The notes under the pieces are model-generated. The model ran no database searches, was not told where the DNA came from, and was given only the letters and a program-made list of their open reading frames with translations. Of a stretch of 64,000 nucleotides of DNA, positions 2,425 to 62,090 are shown one piece after another. This stretch comes from an uncultured Acidimicrobiia bacterium (GTDB taxonomy: Bacteria > Actinomycetota > Acidimicrobiia > Spongiisociales > Spongiisociaceae), in assembly GCA_958295745.1 (NCBI GenBank), contig OY282370.1, forward strand, positions 868,001 through 932,000, read 5' to 3'. A program made the translations under genes and the position numbers. The first letter of the stretch is position 1; the number at the start of each line of letters is the position of its first letter.

Positions 2425-2664
2425 CGAACAGATATCGCAGTGAATCCGGATACTGCGATCAGAGAAGAATCGAACCGCCCAGGCCGACCGCCTCCCGCAG
2501 GCAGGCAGCGGACCGAAGGGCGGAGCGGTACGAAGTAGCTGTGGCTGAAAACGCATCGGGCACGGGCGGTGAGAACACGCCCCCCGCAGCCCGAAGACGA
2601 TGGTTGGTGGCGGCGGGGGCAGGGCCCGGCGAAGCCGGGTTTTTCGGCGGGAGAACGCGAAAAA
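2425..2664 (+). ncRNA. repeated structured RNA-like element, copy 1
   Basis: The 5' hairpin at 2431-2460 pairs ATCGCAGT with ACTGCGAT around a CCGGA loop and is bounded by GATATC and GATCA. A second pairing joins CCGCCC (about 2476) with GGGCGG (about 2519). A linker CGAAGTAGCTG follows, and then a third stem pairs CGGGC (about 2557) with GCCCG (about 2589). The 3' hairpin CCCGGCGAAGCCGGG (2625-2639) is followed at once by five T, which looks like an intrinsic terminator. The tail GAACGCGAAAAA is conserved in the other copies. The same order of parts is found near 54.4, 56.9 and 60.9 kb. The family was not recognised. Confidence 0.55.
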
Positions 2665-52923: not shown

Positions 52924-54084
52924 ATGGACTTCGCGCTGAGCGATGAACAGAAGCTGATAGTGGAGACAGCCCGGCTGTTCACCGAGCAGGAGCTGTTCCC
53001 CTACGAATCCGAGGTGGAGCTCACCGGCCGGGTTTCTCCGGAGCTGGTGGACCGGATCAAAACCCGATCCATCGCGGCGGGCATCTACGCCGCCAACATG
53101 CCGGCCGAGTACGGAGGGGCGGGCCTCGACCCCCTCACCCTGGCGCTGGTGGAGCGGGAACTGGGGGCCGCCTCCTTCGCCCTCCAGTACATAGTGGCCA
53201 GGCCTTCCAACATCCTGCGGGCCTGCCGGGGCGAACAGATCGAACGCTATCTGCTGCCCACCGTCCGGGGCGAGCGGGTCGAATGCCTGGCGATGAGCGA
53301 ACCGGACGCCGGCTCCGACCTGCGGGGCATGAAGTGCACGGCCTCCCGGGGCGGGGGCGGCTATGTCATCGACGGCGCCAAGCACTTCATCAGCCACGCC
53401 GACCTGGCCGACTACGTCATCCTGTTCGCCGCCACCGGCGAAGAGCCCGGACCCAGAGGGCCCCGCAAGCTGATCACCGCCTTCCTCGTGGACATGGATA
53501 CACCCGGATTCGAGGTGCGCCCCGGCTATCGGGCGGTGTCGAACCGGGGTTACCACAACTTCGTCTTGAACTTCGACGGTTGCCGGGTGCCCGAATCGGC
53601 CGTCCTGGGGGAGGAACACCGGGGTTTCGAGGTGGCCAACGAATGGCTGGGCTCCACCCGGCTCCAAGTGGCGGCCGTCTGTCTGGGCCGGGCCCGGCGC
53701 GCCATCCGCCTGGCAACCGAATGGGCGGTGGACCGCCGCCAGTTCGGACAGCAGATCGGCAAGTTCCAGGGGGTGTCGTTCAAGCTGGCGGACATGAAGA
53801 CCCGATACGAGGCCGCCGAGCTGCTCACCCTCCGGGCGGCCTGGAAGGACGGGGAGGGCGTCATGACCGACACCGACGCGGCCATGGCCAAGCTGTACGC
53901 CAGCGAGATGTGCCAGTTCGTCACCGACGAGGCCATCCAGATCTTCGGCGGCATGGGCCTGATGGACGAGATGCCGCTGGAACGGCTGTGGCGGGACACC
54001 AGGGTGGACCGCATCTGGGACGGCACCTCCGAGATCCAGCGCCACATAATCTCCCGGGCGATGCTCCGGCCCCTCGGCGGATGA
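52924..54084 (+). CDS. acyl-CoA dehydrogenase, possibly for gamma-butyrobetainyl-CoA
   Basis: 386 residues with the full family set: EYGGAGLDPLTLALVERELG, LAMSEPDAGSDLRGMK, RRQFGQQIGKFQGVSFKLADM, and IFGGMGLMDEMPLERLWRD. The usual catalytic Glu of YEGTS is Asp in IWDGTSEIQ (residue 366). The GTSEIQRHI tail otherwise matches FadE-type enzymes. With CaiD and a CoA ligase it could act as the gamma-butyrobetainyl-CoA step, in place of CaiA (inference). Confidence 0.85.
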   Translation: MDFALSDEQKLIVETARLFTEQELFPYESEVELTGRVSPELVDRIKTRSIAAGIYAANMPAEYGGAGLDPLTLALVERELGAASFALQYIVARPSNILRACRGEQIERYLLPTVRGERVECLAMSEPDAGSDLRGMKCTASRGGGGYVIDGAKHFISHADLADYVILFAATGEEPGPRGPRKLITAFLVDMDTPGFEVRPGYRAVSNRGYHNFVLNFDGCRVPESAVLGEEHRGFEVANEWLGSTRLQVAAVCLGRARRAIRLATEWAVDRRQFGQQIGKFQGVSFKLADMKTRYEAAELLTLRAAWKDGEGVMTDTDAAMAKLYASEMCQFVTDEAIQIFGGMGLMDEMPLERLWRDTRVDRIWDGTSEIQRHIISRAMLRPLGG

Positions 54085-54234
54085 AACGGGCGGCTTCACG
54101 GGCGGCGCCCGCCGGCCTCCTGCGCACGCCCCGTCCGCCCGGCCCGCCGGAGACCGCCGGAACGGCAGAACCGGCAACGACGTCCGATATGACGCCCGGC
54201 ATGAGGCGCCGCCGCACCCGGCATCCATGGATCC
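54085..54234. other. gap between acyl-CoA dehydrogenase and RNA element copy 2
   Basis: GC-rich, with no convincing frame of its own. It lies downstream of the minus-strand RNA element and between convergent transcripts. No terminator with a T-run was seen. Confidence 0.3.
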
Positions 54235-54465
54235 GACTTTTCGCGTTCTTCGCGCCAAAACCCCCGGCTCCGCCGGGCCCCCACCCCCGCCTCCACCGAT
54301 CCAAGGCCGCAGACGGCGGGAGGGCGCGTGGGCCCGGCCCGCACTCGGTCGGTCGTCGGCTAGTTTCGCGCCCCCTTCCCCTTAGGACGATGCGCCGGAT
54401 GGCCGGCCGGTCCCGGGGCGGGCGCCGTTATGATCTCAGCAGAACTACTGTGATATGTATCACTA
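54235..54465 (-). ncRNA. repeated structured RNA-like element, copy 2
   Basis: Minus strand. The 5' hairpin (54456-54432) pairs ATCACAGTAG with CTGCTGAGAT with one mismatch, and keeps the ATATC and GATCA flanks. Next come a second stem (GCGCCC with GGGCGC), the linker CGAAACTAGCCG, and GGATCGGTGGAGGCGGGGG. The 3' hairpin CCCGGCGGAGCCGGG (54277-54263) is followed by GGTTTT, and the tail GAACGCGAAAA ends at 54238. The copy points away from the acs gene. Confidence 0.55.
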
Positions 54466-54471
54466 ACACTT

Positions 54472-54500
54472 CTTATATCATAAATAAGGGCGGTGGTCAA
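54472..54500 (-). promoter_or_regulatory. promoter of RNA element copy 2
   Basis: Minus strand TTGACC (54500-54495), exactly 17 bases, TATAAG (54477-54472). Preceded by AAGGGGG as at copy 3. Confidence 0.6.
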
Positions 54501-54592
54501 CCCCCTTGCCGCCCCGGCCTCTGGAATCTCTACGCCCCGGCCGATCTCCCTGACACGACCATTCGCATCGAGGTCAACCCCCCGGCCGCCGG

Positions 54593-56683
54593 ATGAGGGC
54601 GCACGGCCAGGGCCGCGACCTTCACCGCCTCCTGGACCCCCGGACCGTGGCGGTTGTCGGAGGCCTCCCCGCCGAGCAGGCCGTAAGGCAGTCGGACCTG
54701 CTCGGCTACGAAGGCGAGATATGGCCGGTCCACCCCACCCGCCGCACCATGGCCGGGCGCCGGGTCCACCGGTCGCTGGACGATCTGCCCGGGATACCCG
54801 ACGCCGCCTTCGTGGCGGTCAACCGGCATCTCACCGTGGAGGTGGTGCACGATCTGGCCCGCCTGGGGTGCGGCGGGGCGGTGCTGTACGCCTCCGGATT
54901 CGCCGAGGCCGGAGAGGAGGGCGCCGAGCTCCAGGAACAGCTGATCTCCGGGCACGATATGCCGCTCGTGGGACCCAACTGCTACGGAACGATCAGCGGG
55001 GTGACCGGCGCCGCCCTGTGGCCGGATGTGCACGGCTGCCGCCGGGTGGAAGCCGGACCGGGGCTGATCAGCCAGTCCGGGAACATAACCCTCAACCTCA
55101 CCATGAACCGCAGGGGCGTCGACTTCAGCTACATAGTCTCCCTCGGCAACCAGTCGTCGGTAACCGCCGAGGAATGCCTCTCCCACTTTGCCCGCCGCCC
55201 CGAGGTGACCGCGGTGGGGCTCTACCTGGAATCGATCATAGATCCCATCGCCTTCGGCCGGGCCGCGCTGGCCTGCCGAGAGGCGGGGACCCCCGTGGTG
55301 GTGCTCAAGTCCGGGCGTACGGATCGGGCCGGCCGGATCACCTCGTCCCACACCGCGGCCCTGGCCGCTCCGGCGGACGCCTACGACGCCCTCTTCGAGC
55401 GGTACGGAGTGGCGGCGGCGGAGTCCCTGCCCGAGCTGGTCACCATCCTCGGGTTGCTCGACGCGATCGGCCCGCTTCCCGGGAACCGCCTGGTGTCCCT
55501 GTCCTGTTCGGGCGGCGAGGCGGCGCTGGCGGCGGATCGGGCCGTCCACCGCCGGGTGGTGTTCGAGCCGTTCGCCCCCGAGCATGCCGCCCGGGTGAAG
55601 GCGACCCTGTCCGGGCCGGCGGCGGTCACCAACCCGCTCGACTACCACACCTTCATCTGGGGAGACGAGGCCGCTCTCGAGCGGTGCTTCACGGAGGTGC
55701 TGACCGGTCCGTTCGACGCCGCCATGCTGATCCTCGACTGGCCGGCCGACGGCATCGACGACACCGACTGGTGGCCGACCCTCCGGGCCTTCGAGTCGGC
55801 CGCCGCCGCAAGCGGCACGCCCGGGTTGGTGACGGCGGGCCTGGCGGAGAACCTGCCCGACCGGATCCGGGAACACCTGACCGAACGGGGCGTGGGGGTG
55901 GCCTACTCCATCGACGAGGCGCTGGGCGGGATGGCGGCCGCGGCGGCGGTGGGGCGGTGGTTCGACCGGGACCCGCCGCCGATCCACCTGCCTGCCGGAG
56001 GCCCGCCGCGGCCCCTGCCCCCGCCCTCCGGCGGCGCCTCCGATGACCGCCGCACCGAGACCCTCGACGAACCCGCCGCCAAGGCGCTGCTGCGGAAGGC
56101 GGGGATCGCTGCGCCCGCCGGGACGGTGCTGACCGGACAGGCGCCCGCCGGAAGGCCGGCCATTCCGGACCGCCTCCGCTTCCCGCTGGTCGCCAAGACG
56201 GTGGGCCCCGGCCACAAGACCGATCTGGGCGGGGTGATCACGGGGATCGACAACGCAGAGGATCTGGAAACGGCCCTCCGGCGGCTGGGCGGCTCAGGAC
56301 GCCCGGTCCTGGTCGAGGAACAGATCACGGAGGGTGTAGCCGAGCTGTTGGTGTCGGCCCGCCGGGAAAGACCGATCGGGCTGGTCGCGACCCTGGGGGC
56401 GGGCGGCACGCTGGTGGAGCTCCTCGCCGACACCGTCACCCTGCTGCTCCCGGCCTCCCCCGACGATATACAGAGGGCGGTCGGCCGCATGCGGATCGGC
56501 CGGCTGCTCCGGGGTATGCGGGGGCGGCCGGCCGCCGACCTGGGCGCGGTGGCAGGAGTGGTAGACCGCCTCACCGCTCTGCTGACCGACCGGCCCGATC
56601 TGATCGAGGTCGAGATCAACCCGCTGATCGTCACCCCCGATTCGGCCTGGGCGGTCGACGCCCTGGTGACCGTTTCGCCGTGA
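54593..56683 (+). CDS. ADP-forming acyl-CoA synthetase (CoA ligase) fusion
   Basis: 696 residues joining both subunits of the ADP-forming acetyl-CoA synthetase type. A CoA-binding domain begins at DPRTVAVVGGLP. Ligase domains follow, with LISQSGNITLNLT and the phospho-His motif SSHTAALAAP near residue 243. From about residue 490 an ATP-grasp domain (LRKAGIAAPAG, LVAKTVGPGHKTDLGGV, VEINPLIVTP) closes the protein. Its acid is unknown; beside caiD it could activate gamma-butyrobetaine or carnitine. The ribosome site is weak. It is bracketed by two outward-pointing RNA elements. Confidence 0.88.
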   Translation: MRAHGQGRDLHRLLDPRTVAVVGGLPAEQAVRQSDLLGYEGEIWPVHPTRRTMAGRRVHRSLDDLPGIPDAAFVAVNRHLTVEVVHDLARLGCGGAVLYASGFAEAGEEGAELQEQLISGHDMPLVGPNCYGTISGVTGAALWPDVHGCRRVEAGPGLISQSGNITLNLTMNRRGVDFSYIVSLGNQSSVTAEECLSHFARRPEVTAVGLYLESIIDPIAFGRAALACREAGTPVVVLKSGRTDRAGRITSSHTAALAAPADAYDALFERYGVAAAESLPELVTILGLLDAIGPLPGNRLVSLSCSGGEAALAADRAVHRRVVFEPFAPEHAARVKATLSGPAAVTNPLDYHTFIWGDEAALERCFTEVLTGPFDAAMLILDWPADGIDDTDWWPTLRAFESAAAASGTPGLVTAGLAENLPDRIREHLTERGVGVAYSIDEALGGMAAAAAVGRWFDRDPPPIHLPAGGPPRPLPPPSGGASDDRRTETLDEPAAKALLRKAGIAAPAGTVLTGQAPAGRPAIPDRLRFPLVAKTVGPGHKTDLGGVITGIDNAEDLETALRRLGGSGRPVLVEEQITEGVAELLVSARRERPIGLVATLGAGGTLVELLADTVTLLLPASPDDIQRAVGRMRIGRLLRGMRGRPAADLGAVAGVVDRLTALLTDRPDLIEVEINPLIVTPDSAWAVDALVTVSP

Positions 56684-56744
56684 TCTGCTCCCGGCGGCGC
56701 CGGGCGGACCTAGGTCGGTCGTAAGACCCGTAGACACAAGGGGG

Positions 56745-56773
56745 TTGACGATGTCGCACTTCTATGGTATAGT
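56745..56773 (+). promoter_or_regulatory. promoter of RNA element copy 3
   Basis: TTGACG, exactly 17 bases, TATAGT, preceded by AAGGGGG. The predicted start lies near 56780, before the hairpin at 56801. Confidence 0.65.
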
Positions 56774-56779
56774 TCATAA

Positions 56780-56965
56780 TGTAGAACAACGCAAGCATCA
56801 CGCAGCTCCGGACTGCGGTTGGTTGCAGCATCTGGCTGAGCCGAAACCTCACGGGATACGGACAGGCCCCCGCGCCCGTCCCCTCCCCGGACCTGGATCG
56901 GTGGAGGCGGGGGTGGGCACCCGGCGAAGCCGGGAGGCGCGCGGAGGTCGCGAAAATCCAAGACT
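56780..56965 (+). ncRNA. repeated structured RNA-like element, copy 3 (shorter)
   Basis: The 5' hairpin is CGCAG, CTCCGGA, CTGCG (56801-56817), with the CCGGA loop seen in copies 1 and 4. The middle stem region is shortened compared with other copies. GGATCGGTGGAGGCGGGGG precedes the 3' hairpin CCCGGCGAAGCCGGG (56920-56934), and the tail reads GTCGCGAAAA. No T-run follows the hairpin. Confidence 0.5.
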
Positions 56966-57120
56966 CCCGCCCCTCTCCCACGCCTGCATTCTCCAAGGGT
57001 TCCGTGTATTGAACGGGGCGGCCAAATCCAAGACGTCCGCCCTCCTTCCCGCCTGGGCAACCGTGAGGAGAACAGGCGGCCCGCTTCCTGTCGCGAAAAT
57101 CCCAGACACCTACCCCTCCC
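56951..57120 (+). repeat. three-copy degenerate repeat, 70-73 base period
   Basis: AAATCCAAGAC at 56954 and 57024, and AAATCCCAGAC at 57097. Each is followed by a pyrimidine-rich run such as CCCGCCCCTCTCCCACG. The first and third are preceded by TCGCGA. The remaining sequence to caiD (57121-57282) shows no other element. Confidence 0.6.
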
Positions 57121-57282
57121 CCACGACTACGGGGCTGCTGACAATCGAGCTTCGCTGGGCGGCCTGATCACGACACGCCGGCCCGAGTCTGCCGCATCTG
57201 GACGATCACCTCGTTTCTCCTGGCATGAGACCGCGGCCAGACCGGGCGGCTTCACGGGAAGTGCATCTATAGACTCCGGACG

Positions 57283-58065
57283 ATGACCGACGCAGTCAGG
57301 GTGATCCGCCGGGGCGCAACGATCGAGGTCACCCTCGACCGCCCCAAGGCCAACGCCATCGACGCCCAGACGAGCCGCGAGCTGGGCGGGGTGTTCACCG
57401 ATTTCCGCGACGACCCCGGCCTCAGGGCGGCGATCTTCACCGGAGCGGGCGATCGGTTCTTCTCGGCGGGATGGGACCTGGCGGCCGCCGCGGCGGGGGA
57501 AGCTTACGAGAGCGACTACGGGCCGGGGGGGTTCGGCGGCTTCCCCGAGCTTCCCGGGCTGAACAAGCCGGTGATCGCCGCCGTCAACGGGATGGCGGCC
57601 GGGGGGGGATTCGAGCTGGCCATGTGCGCCGACTTGGTTGCGGCGGCGGACCACGCGGTCTTCTTCCTGCCGGAAGCGGCGGCGGGGGTGATTCCCGATG
57701 TGGGGGCGGTCCGGCTTCCCAGACTGCTGCCGGCGCACATAGCCGCCGAGGTGCTGATCGCCGGCCGCCGGCTCGGCGCCGCGGAGGCGCTCGGATTCGG
57801 GCTGGTCAACCGGGTGGCGCCGGGCGATGAACTCCTGGACGCGGCCCGGGCCCTGGCCGACCGAGTGTGCGCCCTGGCGCCGCTTGCCGTGGCGGCCGTC
57901 CTCGACATACGCCGCCGCACCGAAGGCATGACCGCGGCGGAGGGGCTGGCGCTGATGCGTTCAGGCAAGATCGAGTCCTACCGGAGGATGCTGTCCTCCG
58001 AGGACGCCTTGGAAGGACCCCGCGCCTTCACCGAGAAGCGCGACCCCGTGTGGAAGGGCCGCTGA
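57283..58065 (+). CDS. caiD: carnitinyl-CoA dehydratase / crotonobetainyl-CoA hydratase CaiD
   Basis: 260 residues of the crotonase fold. Long stretches agree with E. coli CaiD as I remember it: LDRPKANAIDA near the N terminus, TGAGDRFFSAGWDLAAAAAG, GPGGFGGF, KPVIAAVNGMAAGGGFELA, and a C terminus SEDALEGPRAFTEKRDPVWK. This similarity is much closer than for a generic enoyl-CoA hydratase. It interconverts crotonobetainyl-CoA and carnitinyl-CoA. The gene follows RNA element copy 3. Confidence 0.9.
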   Translation: MTDAVRVIRRGATIEVTLDRPKANAIDAQTSRELGGVFTDFRDDPGLRAAIFTGAGDRFFSAGWDLAAAAAGEAYESDYGPGGFGGFPELPGLNKPVIAAVNGMAAGGGFELAMCADLVAAADHAVFFLPEAAAGVIPDVGAVRLPRLLPAHIAAEVLIAGRRLGAAEALGFGLVNRVAPGDELLDAARALADRVCALAPLAVAAVLDIRRRTEGMTAAEGLALMRSGKIESYRRMLSSEDALEGPRAFTEKRDPVWKGR

Positions 58066-58195
58066 ACGGGGTGGTCGGAGGGCGGCGCAACCTGCCCGGA
58101 GGTCGGCCCCGGGGCCGCCGAATACGGCAGTCGATCCTGATGCAAAGCCGGCTGCGGCTCGGACGGCCGCTGCACTGTTATTCCGGCCTGCTTGC

Positions 58196-58201
58196 TACAA
58201 T
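58196..58201 (+). promoter_or_regulatory. candidate extended -10 for the MFS gene
   Basis: TTGCTACAAT, an extended -10 form (TGC-TACAAT), about 96 bases before the GTG start. No good -35 at 17 bases. Confidence 0.35.
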
Positions 58202-58296
58202 GACGAGCCGATGCGGGCCCCTCCGGCCCGTCATGCCCTATTGGCCCGCCGTCCGGGACTCACCCGAGCGGCCCTCTCTCCTACGAGCGGTAGAAC

Positions 58297-59649
58297 GTGG
58301 TCGATTCACCCAACCCTCCTGTCGGATCCGCCGACGTAACCATCCCCGGAACCACCGCGCAGACATTGCTGGGGGCGTGGGGGCTGTTCGCCGCCATCCT
58401 CCTCGTGATGCTGGGGAACGGGATGTTGGTCCCGCTGCTCGGCATAAGGGCCGAGCTCGAAGGTTTCTCGACCACCACCACCGGATTCGTGCTGGGTTTC
58501 TACTACGCCGGGTTCCTGGTCGGGGCGGCGGTCACCCGCCGGCTGGTGGCCCATGTCGGACACATCCGGGTGTACGCGGCGCTGGCCTCGCTGGCCTCGA
58601 CAGCCACCCTGGTATACATCATCACCCCCGACCCCCTCGTCTGGAGCGCGGCCCGGCTGCTGACCGGCTTCGCCATGTCCGGCCTGTTCATCGTCGCGGA
58701 GAGCTGGGTGGGCGATGCGAGCACCAACGAGAACCGCGGGCGGGTGCTGGCCGTCTACATGGTGGTGTTGATGGGCGGCATGGGCCTCGGCCAGCTGCTC
58801 CTGCCCCTGGCCGACCCGGCCGGGAGCGTCCTTTTCATCGTGGGATCGATCCTGGTGTCGATAGCGGTGATACCCATCACGCTGTCCGTCTCGCCGGCGC
58901 CCCGACTGGCCATCTCCGAGAAGCTGCCCATCCGCCGGGTCTGGAACGAGGCATCGCTGGGGCTGGCGGCCGCCTTCGGCCAGGGCGCCGGGGTGGCCTC
59001 CCTGCTGAGCCTGGCGGCGGTGTTCGGCTCCCGGGTCGGTATGAGCGTGGGCCGCATCGCCCTGTTCACCAGCATGGCCGTCTTCGGAAGCATCGCCCTG
59101 CAGGCCCCGGTCGGCGTGTTGTCCGACCGGGTGGGGAGGCGGGGGGTGATGATGGGCACCGGGCTGCTGGCCGCCGGGGTGTGCCTGGTCATGATGTACA
59201 CCGATCATCTGAGCTGGTGGGCGGTGGTCATGTCGTTCCTGGTGGGGGGTTTGACCCTCCCCATGTATCCGCTGGCCCTCAGCTACATAAACGACCGCGT
59301 TCCCGCCGGTTCGTCCGCCGGGGTGAGCAGCCTGATGTCCTTCACCACCGGGGTAGGCGCAGTCATAGGGCCGGTCGGCGCCGCCTTCGTCATGGAAGCC
59401 GCCGGACCCGGAGGCCTGTTTTGGTTCATCGGCGCCGTATACCTCTGCATCACCCTCTACGCCGGAATACAGATCCTCACCCAAGAGGGGATCCCTGCCA
59501 AGGAACGGCGGGCCTTCGTCATGGTGCCGGCCCGCGCCGGTGCGGTCATCCTCCACATGGCCCGGCGGCGGCGGCGCCACCCCGTCGAAGCGGCGGCCGA
59601 GAATGCTCCGGAGGAACGGTGCGAACCCGAGCAGACCGGTCGTTCGTGA
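58297..59649 (+). CDS. major facilitator superfamily transporter
   Basis: 450 residues with about 12 membrane segments, beginning TLLGAWGLFAAILLVMLGNGMLVPLLG. Conserved cytoplasmic loops are RRLVAHVGHIRVYAALA, RLLTGFAMSGLFIVAESWV and VLSDRVGRRGVMMGTGLLAAG. It resembles the YcaD/YfkF group, whose substrates are poorly known. The C-terminal tail is long, basic and cytoplasmic. It lies behind caiD, so uptake of betaine-type compounds is possible but unproven. GTG start. Confidence 0.85.
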   Translation: MVDSPNPPVGSADVTIPGTTAQTLLGAWGLFAAILLVMLGNGMLVPLLGIRAELEGFSTTTTGFVLGFYYAGFLVGAAVTRRLVAHVGHIRVYAALASLASTATLVYIITPDPLVWSAARLLTGFAMSGLFIVAESWVGDASTNENRGRVLAVYMVVLMGGMGLGQLLLPLADPAGSVLFIVGSILVSIAVIPITLSVSPAPRLAISEKLPIRRVWNEASLGLAAAFGQGAGVASLLSLAAVFGSRVGMSVGRIALFTSMAVFGSIALQAPVGVLSDRVGRRGVMMGTGLLAAGVCLVMMYTDHLSWWAVVMSFLVGGLTLPMYPLALSYINDRVPAGSSAGVSSLMSFTTGVGAVIGPVGAAFVMEAAGPGGLFWFIGAVYLCITLYAGIQILTQEGIPAKERRAFVMVPARAGAVILHMARRRRRHPVEAAAENAPEERCEPEQTGRS

Positions 59650-59891
59650 ACAGCTGCGACTTCGTCATCGTCGGGGGCGGCTCGGACGGATGCTCCGACG
59701 CCATGCTCCCTCCGGCGGGGCAACCCATGGACTACGAGGTGCGGGCTGCGGCGCCCGGTATGGATAAGTGGAGATGCGCCCACTGCCTGCCGTATTTCAA
59801 ACGGCTGAAGGCCGCCTCCCGCCGAACCGATGAGTACCGGGGCCGGCTTATCCCTCCTCGCAGCCGTCCAGGTAGTCCACCGCCGGTTTGA
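59646..59891 (+). pseudogene. remnant of a GMC oxidoreductase (choline dehydrogenase-like)
   Basis: Starts at GTGA over the MFS stop. It reads CDFVIVGGGSDGC (the FAD dinucleotide motif of GMC enzymes), then jumps to MDYEVRAAAPGMDKW and HCLPYFKRLKAASRRTDEYRG, which in BetA lies some 70-80 residues further on. The rest of the roughly 550-residue protein is missing. Read as a decayed betA: an internal deletion plus loss of the C terminus. Choline-to-betaine oxidation would no longer work from here. Confidence 0.7.
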
Positions 59892-60570
59892 TCCCGAGGC
59901 GGAAACGGGCCACCGATCCGTCCTCGATCTCGAAGTAGATGCGGAAGTCGGCGTCGAAATCGTCGTTGGGTACGAAAGCCCAGGCCCGACCGCTCGACAC
60001 CGCATCGTCGGCCCGCTGGATGTTGTCCGGGTAGGCCTCCCGCAGGTCTCCCTCCGAGGTGCCGATCCGCACCCCCGACCTGGTAGCCGCCGGGCTGGGC
60101 GAGTCGATGTCGATGCGGCTGATCGATCCGTTCACCACCATGAACGACACCCCCCGCATGGTGGGGCCGGCGCTCGCGTAATAGCAGCTGTCGGTCGACG
60201 CCCTGCCCAGGTCCCGACGGAGCTCGAGCCCCGCCGCGCCGGACGCCTCCTCCATCGACATACCGACCCGCACCGTACCCAGGGCCCGCAGCGTGACGAT
60301 GGAATCGGGGGTCAGCGCGGCAACCACCGGCTCGATTTCGTCGACGGGGGGCAGGGTTACGGCGGTGGTGGTGACCGGCTGCTCAGCAACCGGAGCTGTG
60401 GAGGGGGTGGTAGTGGGCTCCGTAACCTGCCTGGGGGGAGTGGTTTCGGTAGGAGTCAAGATATCCGTCAGGACGGAGTCAGCGCTGGTCGTGTCGGCCG
60501 GGTCGTCGCTACCGCATGCGGCCGCCGCCAGCGCCAGCACCGCCGCCAACATGATAACCAGCTTCTTCAT
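59848..60570 (-). CDS. lipoprotein of unknown function
   Basis: 240 residues. The signal peptide ends in a lipobox (LALAAAACGS, Cys at about 19). A Thr/Pro-rich linker (about 20-75) precedes a folded domain with TVRVGMSMEEASGAAG and VVNGSISRIDIDSP. CYYAS and DYLDGCEEG hold the only other Cys pair. Anchored outside the membrane. The ATG at 60570 follows GGAGGAG. Not recognised further. Confidence 0.75.
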   Translation of the reverse strand: MKKLVIMLAAVLALAAAACGSDDPADTTSADSVLTDILTPTETTPPRQVTEPTTTPSTAPVAEQPVTTTAVTLPPVDEIEPVVAALTPDSIVTLRALGTVRVGMSMEEASGAAGLELRRDLGRASTDSCYYASAGPTMRGVSFMVVNGSISRIDIDSPSPAATRSGVRIGTSEGDLREAYPDNIQRADDAVSSGRAWAFVPNDDFDADFRIYFEIEDGSVARFRLGIKPAVDYLDGCEEG

Positions 60571-60800
60571 GGCAACTCCTCCGAGCTTACATCGAACATG
60601 AGCACAGTTTAGGCTATATCCTACGGCGCTATCTCCCCGGTATTCTAGGATTTTCCCGCTCTCTCCCGGTGAAAGCGGCGGCGTGCGGGGGGAGATGGTC
60701 TCGACCATCCCTCGGTCGCCGCCGCAACGACCACCCCATGAGGGAAGCGGCTCGACTGCGCTTGCACCTCTGTGAAACCGTATCCGTCACACCCCCGTTG

Positions 60801-60806
60801 TATGTT
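60801..60806 (+). promoter_or_regulatory. -10-like box of RNA element copy 4
   Basis: GTTG-TATGTT, sharing TTGTAT with the -10 region of copy 1. No recognisable -35 at 17 bases, so this promoter is the weakest of the four. Confidence 0.35.
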
Positions 60807-60812
60807 ACGGCG

Positions 60813-61050
60813 GCAGATATCCCAGCGGTCCGGACCGCTGGGATCATTGGAACGCTCCGCCCGGGAACACCGGCCGCCGGTCTTCCGGACCGGTACCGGA
60901 TACCAAGGGCGGGGCGGTCGAAAATAGCTGCGCTGAGACGGATCGGGCGCCGGCGGGTGAACACGCCCCCGGCGGCCCGGAGACGGTGGATCGGCGGCGG
61001 CGGGGGCGGGACCCGGCGAAGCCGGCGGATTCGGGCCGAGAACGCGAAAA
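60813..61050 (+). ncRNA. repeated structured RNA-like element, copy 4
   Basis: A perfect 26-bp palindrome at 60819-60844 (half-site ATCCCAGCGGTCC), within the same GATATC...GATCA frame as copy 1. It is followed by a stem CGCTCCGCCC with GGGCGGGGCG, and the linker CGAAAATAGCTG. A stem GCCGGCGGG with CGCCCCCGGC comes next, then the 3' hairpin CCGGCGAAGCCGG (61013-61025) and the tail GAGAACGCGAAAA. Alignment with copy 1 is clear over about 230 bases. No T-run after the last hairpin. Confidence 0.55.
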
Positions 61051-61150
61051 ACGGGGACGCAGGGACGCGGGCAATCAGGTCGGTTCTCAGATCCGACTCG
61101 TCCACCCCGCGCAACCGGCGCCCCGGCCCACTCCAACCGAAACTTCAATG

Positions 61151-61173
61151 GATGATCAGAGTTTATGATCATC
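61151..61173. promoter_or_regulatory. perfect inverted repeat over the DUF368 promoter
   Basis: GATGATCA, seven bases, TGATCATC. A TATGAT -10 hexamer (61164-61169) lies inside. The predicted start is at or next to the ATG at 61176, so the message may be leaderless, and no ribosome site is seen. Confidence 0.5.
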
Positions 61174-61175
61174 GG

Positions 61176-62090
61176 ATGAACCGCACCCGCCCATCTTGGG
61201 GAGAACTGGCGCTGTTGTGGGTGAGGGGGGCGGCCGTGGGGACGGCCGACCTGGTGCCGGGGGTGAGCGGGGGAACGGTGGCGCTGGTCACCCGCATCTA
61301 CCCGCGCCTGCTAGAGGTGGTGACCGCGGGCGCGGAGGCGGCGGCCTTCCTGGTGCGGGGGGAGGTGCGGAAGGCGGGGAGGCGGCTGCGGTCGGTCGAT
61401 TGGTGGTTCACGGCCGCCGTGGCGTCGGGGGCGGCGCCGGCGGCGGTGTCCTTGGCAGGAGTGATCGAATATCTGCTGGCCGAGCATCCGGTGCGCACCG
61501 CGGCGGTGTTCGCCGGGCTGATGGCGGGAGCATCGGCGGCGGCGGCTCTGATGCTGCGCCGCCCGTCCTTCTCGCATCTGGTCATCGCCGTTCTGGTGGG
61601 GGCGGCCTCTTTCTGGGTCTTCGGTTTTAGGTCGGAGGCGGTGGCCGACCCGGCCTGGTGGGCGTTCTTCCTGGCGGGAGCGGCCGGGGTGTGCGCGTTT
61701 ATCATGCCGGGGGTGAGCGGGTCGTTCGTCCTGTTGGCGGTCGGGATGTACCAGCCGGTGATACGGGCGGTGGCCGGCACCGACCTGCCCGTATTGGCGG
61801 TGTTCGCAGCCGGGCTGCTGCTCGGCTTGGGCGGTTTCGCCCGGGTTCTACAGTGGCTGCTGGCCCGCTGGCACGACCGGGTGCTGGCTGTGATGATCGG
61901 TCTGATGGCGGGTTCTTTTCGCATACTGTGGCCGTGGCCGAACGGATTGGGGGATGAAAACGGGGCGGGGGCCGCCGTCCTGGGAGCACCCGGCCCGGAT
62001 GCGGCCGTACCGGTTGCCCTGGCCGCCGGGTGCGCGGGGGCGGTGGCCGCTTTCGCCTGGTGGGCCAACCGCCGGTCCATGGGGGCGTGA
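61176..62090 (+). CDS. DUF368 family polyprenyl-phosphate transporter-like protein
   Basis: 304 residues with about eight membrane segments. The paired family motifs are visible: LVPGVSGGTVALVTRIY near residue 25 and FIMPGVSGSFVLLAVGMY near 178. DUF368 proteins (PopT) flip undecaprenyl phosphate back across the membrane. The ATG at 61176 is chosen because the membrane domain follows closely. Confidence 0.85.
   Translation: MNRTRPSWGELALLWVRGAAVGTADLVPGVSGGTVALVTRIYPRLLEVVTAGAEAAAFLVRGEVRKAGRRLRSVDWWFTAAVASGAAPAAVSLAGVIEYLLAEHPVRTAAVFAGLMAGASAAAALMLRRPSFSHLVIAVLVGAASFWVFGFRSEAVADPAWWAFFLAGAAGVCAFIMPGVSGSFVLLAVGMYQPVIRAVAGTDLPVLAVFAAGLLLGLGGFARVLQWLLARWHDRVLAVMIGLMAGSFRILWPWPNGLGDENGAGAAVLGAPGPDAAVPVALAAGCAGAVAAFAWWANRRSMGA

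Follow-up and report, generated by a model that had tools for sequence, protein, structure and literature searches.

The window analysed here is a stretch of 64,000 nucleotides from the genome of an uncultured Acidimicrobiia bacterium and contains four copies of a repeated element, flanked by unrelated housekeeping genes. The positions and strands given in a preliminary description of this DNA, approximately 2425-2664 (+), 54465-54235 (-), 56780-56965 (+) and 60813-61050 (+), were borne out. Each copy is a compact unit composed of a sigma-70 promoter, a multi-branched RNA of ~190-240 nt and a GC hairpin, in most cases with a T-run. From the sequence, we infer that the units are transcribed from these promoters; the exact ends are putative.

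The promoter of copy 1 (2390-2418, +), aligned to those of the other copies, has a -35 box TTGGTG, a 17-nt spacer containing TGTCTCA and a -10 box TATAGT. The RNA gene (2425-2665, +) has hairpin I at 2434-2459 and a G-tract at 2606-2619, and its 3' end consists of a terminator-like hairpin (2625-2639), a T-run (2640-2644) and the motif GAGAACGCGAAAAAC (2651-2665). Copy 2, on the minus strand, has its promoter at 54472-54500 (TTGACC, 17-nt spacer, TATAAG) and its RNA gene at 54238-54465, with hairpin I at 54454-54433, the G-tract at 54297-54284, a 3' hairpin with the loop GGA at 54277-54263 and the motif GAACGCGAAAA at 54248-54238. The middle of copy 3 is shorter; its promoter (56745-56773, +; TTGACG, 17-nt spacer, TATAGT) precedes an RNA gene at 56780-56957 (+) with hairpin arms at 56801-56805/56813-56817, the G-tract at 56900-56913, the 3' hairpin at 56920-56934 and the motif GTCGCGAAAA at 56948-56957. 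In the promoter region of copy 4 (60777-60806, +) the -35 box is degenerate, the spacer contains GTCACA and the -10 box is TATGTT (60801-60806). The RNA gene (60813-61052, +) includes hairpin I at 60819-60844, the G-tract at 60993-61006, the 3' hairpin at 61012-61025 and the motif GAGAACGCGAAAAAC at 61038-61052.

Inspection by eye recovered the 5' hairpins noted previously, with the arms ATCGCAGT/ACTGCGAT in copy 1 and CGCAG/CTGCG in copy 3, a perfect 26-nt palindrome as hairpin I of copy 4, and a hairpin in copy 2 that is weaker. The CCGGA loop, the ATATC and GATCA flanks, the 3' GC hairpin and the tails GAACGCGAAAA and GTCGCGAAAA were also found as claimed. A common linker is present, although not in the fixed form proposed, as CGAAGTAGCTG, CGAAACTAGCCG and CGAAAATAGCTG differ in length. 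Three features had gone unmentioned: the promoter 5' of each copy, the invariant GGnGGnGGnGGGGG tract that precedes the GC hairpin, and a longer near-identical unit, present in ~8 copies, within which copy 1 lies. A second dispersed repeat, CCCACnCCAACCGAAACTTCAATGnATGATCAGGGTTA, was seen in either orientation 3' of several copies (61119-61165, and near L032, L035, L036, L040 and L049).

The promoter consensus is AACAAGGG-T-nTTGA, a spacer with TGTCACA, and TATAnT 17 nt past the -35 box. When 31 copies from the same genome were aligned, the most conserved promoter columns included AACAAGGG, TTG, TGTCACA and TATA. The conserved stretch extends from ~10 nt 5' of the -35 box to GAGAACGCGAAAAACGG, and the sequence is unique afterwards. 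A simple sigma-70 scan of the 7.3 kb around copies 2-4 (53900-61200), a method that overlooks the weaker promoters of the family, returned a single sigma-70-like site, which coincides exactly with copy 3. The copies may be under common control, given the spacer box that they share.

The expectation that many more copies would be found in the genome was correct; the searches on which the count rests gave ~50. Copy 4 matched 40 places by blastn, one of them a reverse match of its own palindrome, and a pattern combining the G-tract and the GC hairpin had 34 matches. A covariance model built from 24 copies identified 61 places to E 0.05, 47 of them with E<1e-4, and a divergent subtype adds at least 6 copies to the 47. 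Type C copies, which end in GTTTTTCGCGTTCTC instead of GAGAACGCGAAAAAC, were reached via the shared end motif, and a copy resembling those of other genera sits at 2966179. A few of the ~50 copies are fragments broken by insertion sequences. L057, L067, L054 and L056 are interrupted or truncated, apparently by such elements, and short tandem repeats with a period of ~24-75 nt lie directly 3' of the RNA in L060, L059, L053 and L038.

The longer unit around copy 1 (2340-2813, +) is MITE-like, with the ends TTAAGGGGGAAGATCGCC and CACCCTCTTA. It is 472 bp long and near-identical at six full sites, including that of copy 1, and at two broken ones. The ends can also be given as TTAAGGGGGAAG and CACCCTCTTA, with a possible TTA target duplication. 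It had been recognised beforehand that the copies might turn out to be fragments of a known IS or MITE. This may hold in outline for the ~8 copies of the copy 1 type, which have short matching, MITE-like ends; it does not hold for the others, which share no such ends and mostly have no shared ends.

The distribution of the family was evaluated in GTDB genomes. A first pattern, representing G006-type copies, found at least 120 stretches, mostly in MAGs titled Acidimicrobiia; MAGs titled merely 'bacterium' were also among the carriers. The MAGs that carry the family presumably originate from sponges. A pattern of the window genome's own type had no match outside that genome in the genome collection. 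Model R1, built from the pattern-collected copies without window sequence, gave at least 26 matches in each of ten species of genus g4 and led to genera g2 and g49, the latter in another family. The g2 and g49 copies share CCAARCACC, CGGUCCG..ACGUCG..CGGACCG, GAGGGAUCA, GGUGGUGGCGGGGGAGGG and TTTTTCGCG, most of which are also shared with g4. Model R2, built from the g2 and g49 copies, matched 19 of 395 genomes of the class, namely the window genome, 2/2 of g2, 10/10 of g4 and 6/6 of g49, and none of the other 376, two incomplete g3 genomes included. The window genome was the sole carrier in a phylum sample of 396 genomes. The carriers are all sampled members of four genera in two families of one order. 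The four best matches in the window to a model from another genus were the four copies themselves (E 1.3e-5 for copy 1, 8e-4 for copy 3, and 0.029 and 0.035); the E values of 1.5e-31 to 3.7e-21 obtained with the model from the same genome are circular.

Pattern matches in Arthrobacter, Micavibrio, Phycisphaerae and elsewhere were taken as chance, as was a viral match (L328), because no G-tract follows it. The g4-type copy on a contig labelled Gammaproteobacteria (L150) hardly differs from L173; the contig is probably misbinned. Contigs of G006 often end in or beside copies (L015, L017-L020, L069, L071, L075, L079 and L083), as they would where the assembly is interrupted by near-identical copies, in which case the copy counts of such MAGs are lower bounds. 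Palindromic repeats like AGGGCGTCATATATGACGCCCTGA..CCTCAGGAACACCGCACC occur just 3' of many g4 copies (L100, L109, L210 and others).

The proposal that the element is a structured RNA with compensatory changes was evaluated by pairing counts, which supported it. In the window genome, hairpin I takes forms such as ATCGCAG/CTGCGAT, ATCACCG/CGGTGAT and ATCCCAG/CTGGGAT. With stems delimited by hand in 35 copies, 86.8% of cells were paired and 37 were double-change cells, compared with 14.1 in shuffles, none of 2000 shuffles reaching 37. For the second genus, a ribosum-scored fold of 50 pairs was obtained from 78 distinct copies, nearly all from g4. In this fold, 89.5% of cells were paired versus 30-51% with the partner strand slid, double-change cells numbered 90 versus 28.9 when shuffled (0/500), and the covariation score was 0.123 versus 0.084 (0/500). 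Covariation exceeded shuffled and slid controls in the window genome and, independently, in another genus; the contrary outcome, no covariation above background, can be discounted as far as these shuffles allow, given that they ignore kinship among copies. The default RNAalifold structure for alignment A2 was dropped, as the pairing counts favour the ribosum-scored fold.

In the fold that was best resolved (genera g4, g2 and g49), P1 forms between the 5' strand GCC-AAR-CACC and the G-rich 3' strand GGUGGUGGC and closes a junction. P1 encloses P2, a conserved single strand (GAGGGAACAU / GAGGGA(A/U)CA) and a GGAGCG/CGCUCC domain that holds two inner stems, and the terminator hairpin CCCGGUGCGGAGCACCGG-UUUUU lies 3' of P1. 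The first P1 helix is at or 5' of the expected start point and its pairing is poorer. The conservation of GCCAAGCACC and GGGAACAT in A2 is circular, because the sequence sets were collected partly by pattern; similar motifs recur in g2 and g49 sequences that were found without the pattern. A G-quadruplex was at first an attractive reading of GGnGGnGGnGGGGG, because the loop positions vary while the G residues are invariant. This reading was weakened by the g4 alignment, which pairs that strand with the 5' end. The pairing argument comes from the g4 alignment, and a G-quadruplex may form in types A and B of the window genome.

A DNA-level intergenic repeat was also considered, in which the palindromes would merely resemble RNA and the element would serve as a nucleoid-protein site, a double-stranded hairpin or a bidirectional terminator. 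The near invariance of the G-rich tract would fit such a site, as would a conserved motif outside the presumed RNA, TTTTCGCG. A DNA site has no need of nested helices that covary throughout the fold, with a closing stem that spans the RNA. Moreover, a sigma-70 promoter stands in one orientation at a fixed distance, and many copies have a terminator hairpin and T-run. This explanation is considered quite unlikely.

TTTTCGCG is found just past the terminator in 57 of the 74 g4 copies (71/74 with one mismatch allowed) and in none of the control windows. In roughly one g4 copy in three it recurs at a constant position, 60 nt 5' of the RNA, and in the window genome the 3' TTTTCGCG is inverted in 26/27. 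The motif may contribute to termination, be bound by a protein or mark the edge of a recombination unit. The main rival explanation is a selfish family of mobile elements, either an RNA-coding MITE or a cassette, in which promoter, RNA and terminator are moved in trans. The unit would be bounded by TTTTCGCG or by MITE ends, and the RNA would be payload or a mobility aid. The presence of TTTTCGCG on both sides of many g4 copies and the ~8 near-identical 472-bp units with short matching ends are in its favor, and multi-copy motifs of inconsistent orientation have been classed as mobile or repeat candidates (PMC11109978). However, most copies are alike nowhere beyond the promoter and the 3' end, their neighbors include no recurring transposase, many copies (at least 8) were present in each genome sampled from the carrier genera, and searches of plasmid records with copy 4 and of phage records with the copy 1 unit gave no match.

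Neighbor genes made the same locus recognisable in two or three species. At such orthologous loci, promoter and RNA were 87-96% identical overall, while the flanks fell mostly to 44-90%. At the best-resolved locus, L276-L283 (six copies, one pair identical throughout), the values were 87-96% for promoter and RNA versus 61-90% for the flanks; the corresponding values were 92% versus 44-56% for L206/L209, 94.5% versus 90% for L104/L110, and 89.5% versus 82-89% for L212/L217. L105/L118 and L113/L195 were compared as well, with less certain orthology. In the tree of copies, species are mixed in most subfamilies, and one g4 genome has all nine of its copies in a single clade, indicating that individual copies persist and that amplification inside genomes also occurs. 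The clade counts in favor of a mobile element; retention of copies at orthologous places, with more constraint on promoter and RNA than on flanks, counts against one, and a family of small-RNA genes is favored for this reason. The shared spacer box, with the common control that it suggests, points the same way. A mobile element is regarded as rather doubtful.

The succession of promoter, structured domain and terminator is also the layout of a transcriptional riboswitch, and a cis-regulatory leader (riboswitch or attenuator) could end in an intrinsic terminator 5' of the gene that it controls. The orientation of copies to their neighbors is near random (++15, +-19, --26, -+14; n=74), the downstream gene is co-directional in just 29 of the 74 copies and belongs to no common family, and no neighbor protein family recurs among them. 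The neighbors in the window are likewise unrelated. Near-random orientation and the lack of a recurring neighbor argue against cis-regulation and are as expected for a trans-acting gene; a leader was rejected as very improbable.

TnpB/IscB omega-RNAs (HEARO) and other guide scaffolds are ~200-nt structured RNAs that sometimes occur in many copies. Since the conserved part of the element gives way abruptly to unique sequence, the latter could be the guide of an RNA-guided protein. The Cas12f/TnpB C-terminal domain (PF07282) was absent from the window genome and was detected in control genomes, and 21 downstream tails had no above-chance match in that genome besides themselves (best other E 0.18), which together argue against a guide RNA. 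Furthermore, the terminator-like hairpin stands 5' of the tail. This was the least credible of the explanations and was rejected. The family also differs from omega-RNAs in having no Rfam match: the suggested search of Rfam 15 returned tRNA alone for the window and no credible weak match for copies of several types. Literature searches found no published description of the family.

The repeats are a previously uncatalogued family of probable structured small-RNA genes, carried by a small set of related, uncultured Acidimicrobiia genera. The best explanation, with a probability of roughly 0.55, is that they are independent genes for structured trans-acting sRNAs that constitute one exceptionally large paralogous family of ~50 per genome. 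RNA polymerase would start at the sigma-70 promoter with the shared TGTCACA spacer box, transcribe ~190-240 nt and stop at the GC hairpin. The RNAs would act in trans, most likely through a partner common to all of them, a protein or another RNA, to which they would present the junction core that they share; the number of copies would set the dose and the promoter box the common timing. Copy number, the aligned promoter, covariation, distribution, conservation of orthologues and the cross-genus models, which recover the same architecture in another family, all point toward this reading, and, as in multicopy paralogous sRNA families, each genome has several homologous intergenic units with their own predicted promoters. 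Against it, conservation is strongest in the structure, and a long exposed seed of the kind expected in typical pairing sRNAs is missing; an sRNA by itself does not account for the placement of TTTTCGCG; and the nine-copy clade reflects amplification within a genome. More tentatively, the family could be a new class of junction-structured RNA, restricted to an Acidimicrobiia group of two families, whose ~50 co-regulated and individually conserved genes per genome would supply an RNA with a genome-wide, dose-controlled role, such as the RNA component of an abundant ribonucleoprotein.

The known system nearest in kind is FopS, a paralogous sRNA family of Bacteroides with 14 members in B. thetaiotaomicron and 12-15 per genome, whose RNAs of ~65-70 nt act on susC mRNAs through a conserved 5' seed (PMC11697453). 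The FopS genes are likewise multicopy, mostly dispersed and intergenic, have their own promoters and are conserved within one bacterial family. The RNAs described here differ in length (~190-240 nt), junction structure, copy number (~50) and the lack of an identified seed, and the likeness drawn here is one of kind. LhrC1-7, Qrr, OmrA/B and other sibling sRNAs of 2-7 copies, cited in the same source (PMC11697453), are also several homologous genes per genome under shared control, in unrelated bacteria. For the mobile reading, the nearest likeness, by description, is to MRSC-type repeats, which also have dozens of covarying copies per genome in inconsistent orientation. MRSC-65-2 is a mobile or repeat candidate from diverse phyla with a single long stem and a UYCCGG element (PMC11109978), comparable to the hairpin I loops here, often UUCCGGA. 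The present family, in contrast, occurs in four genera and has several helices, with a promoter and a terminator as part of the unit.

The published paralogous bacterial sRNA families that were compared have up to ~15 members versus ~50 per genome here. The family is further set apart by its large covarying structure, shared promoter box, long-term retention of copies and absence from Rfam. It bears on whether a mobile element can carry an sRNA gene as cargo, and the models built here permit immediate searches of metatranscriptomes. With 19 genomes and well over a hundred copies, the family provides a comparative system for asking why a cell would maintain one RNA gene in dozens of copies.
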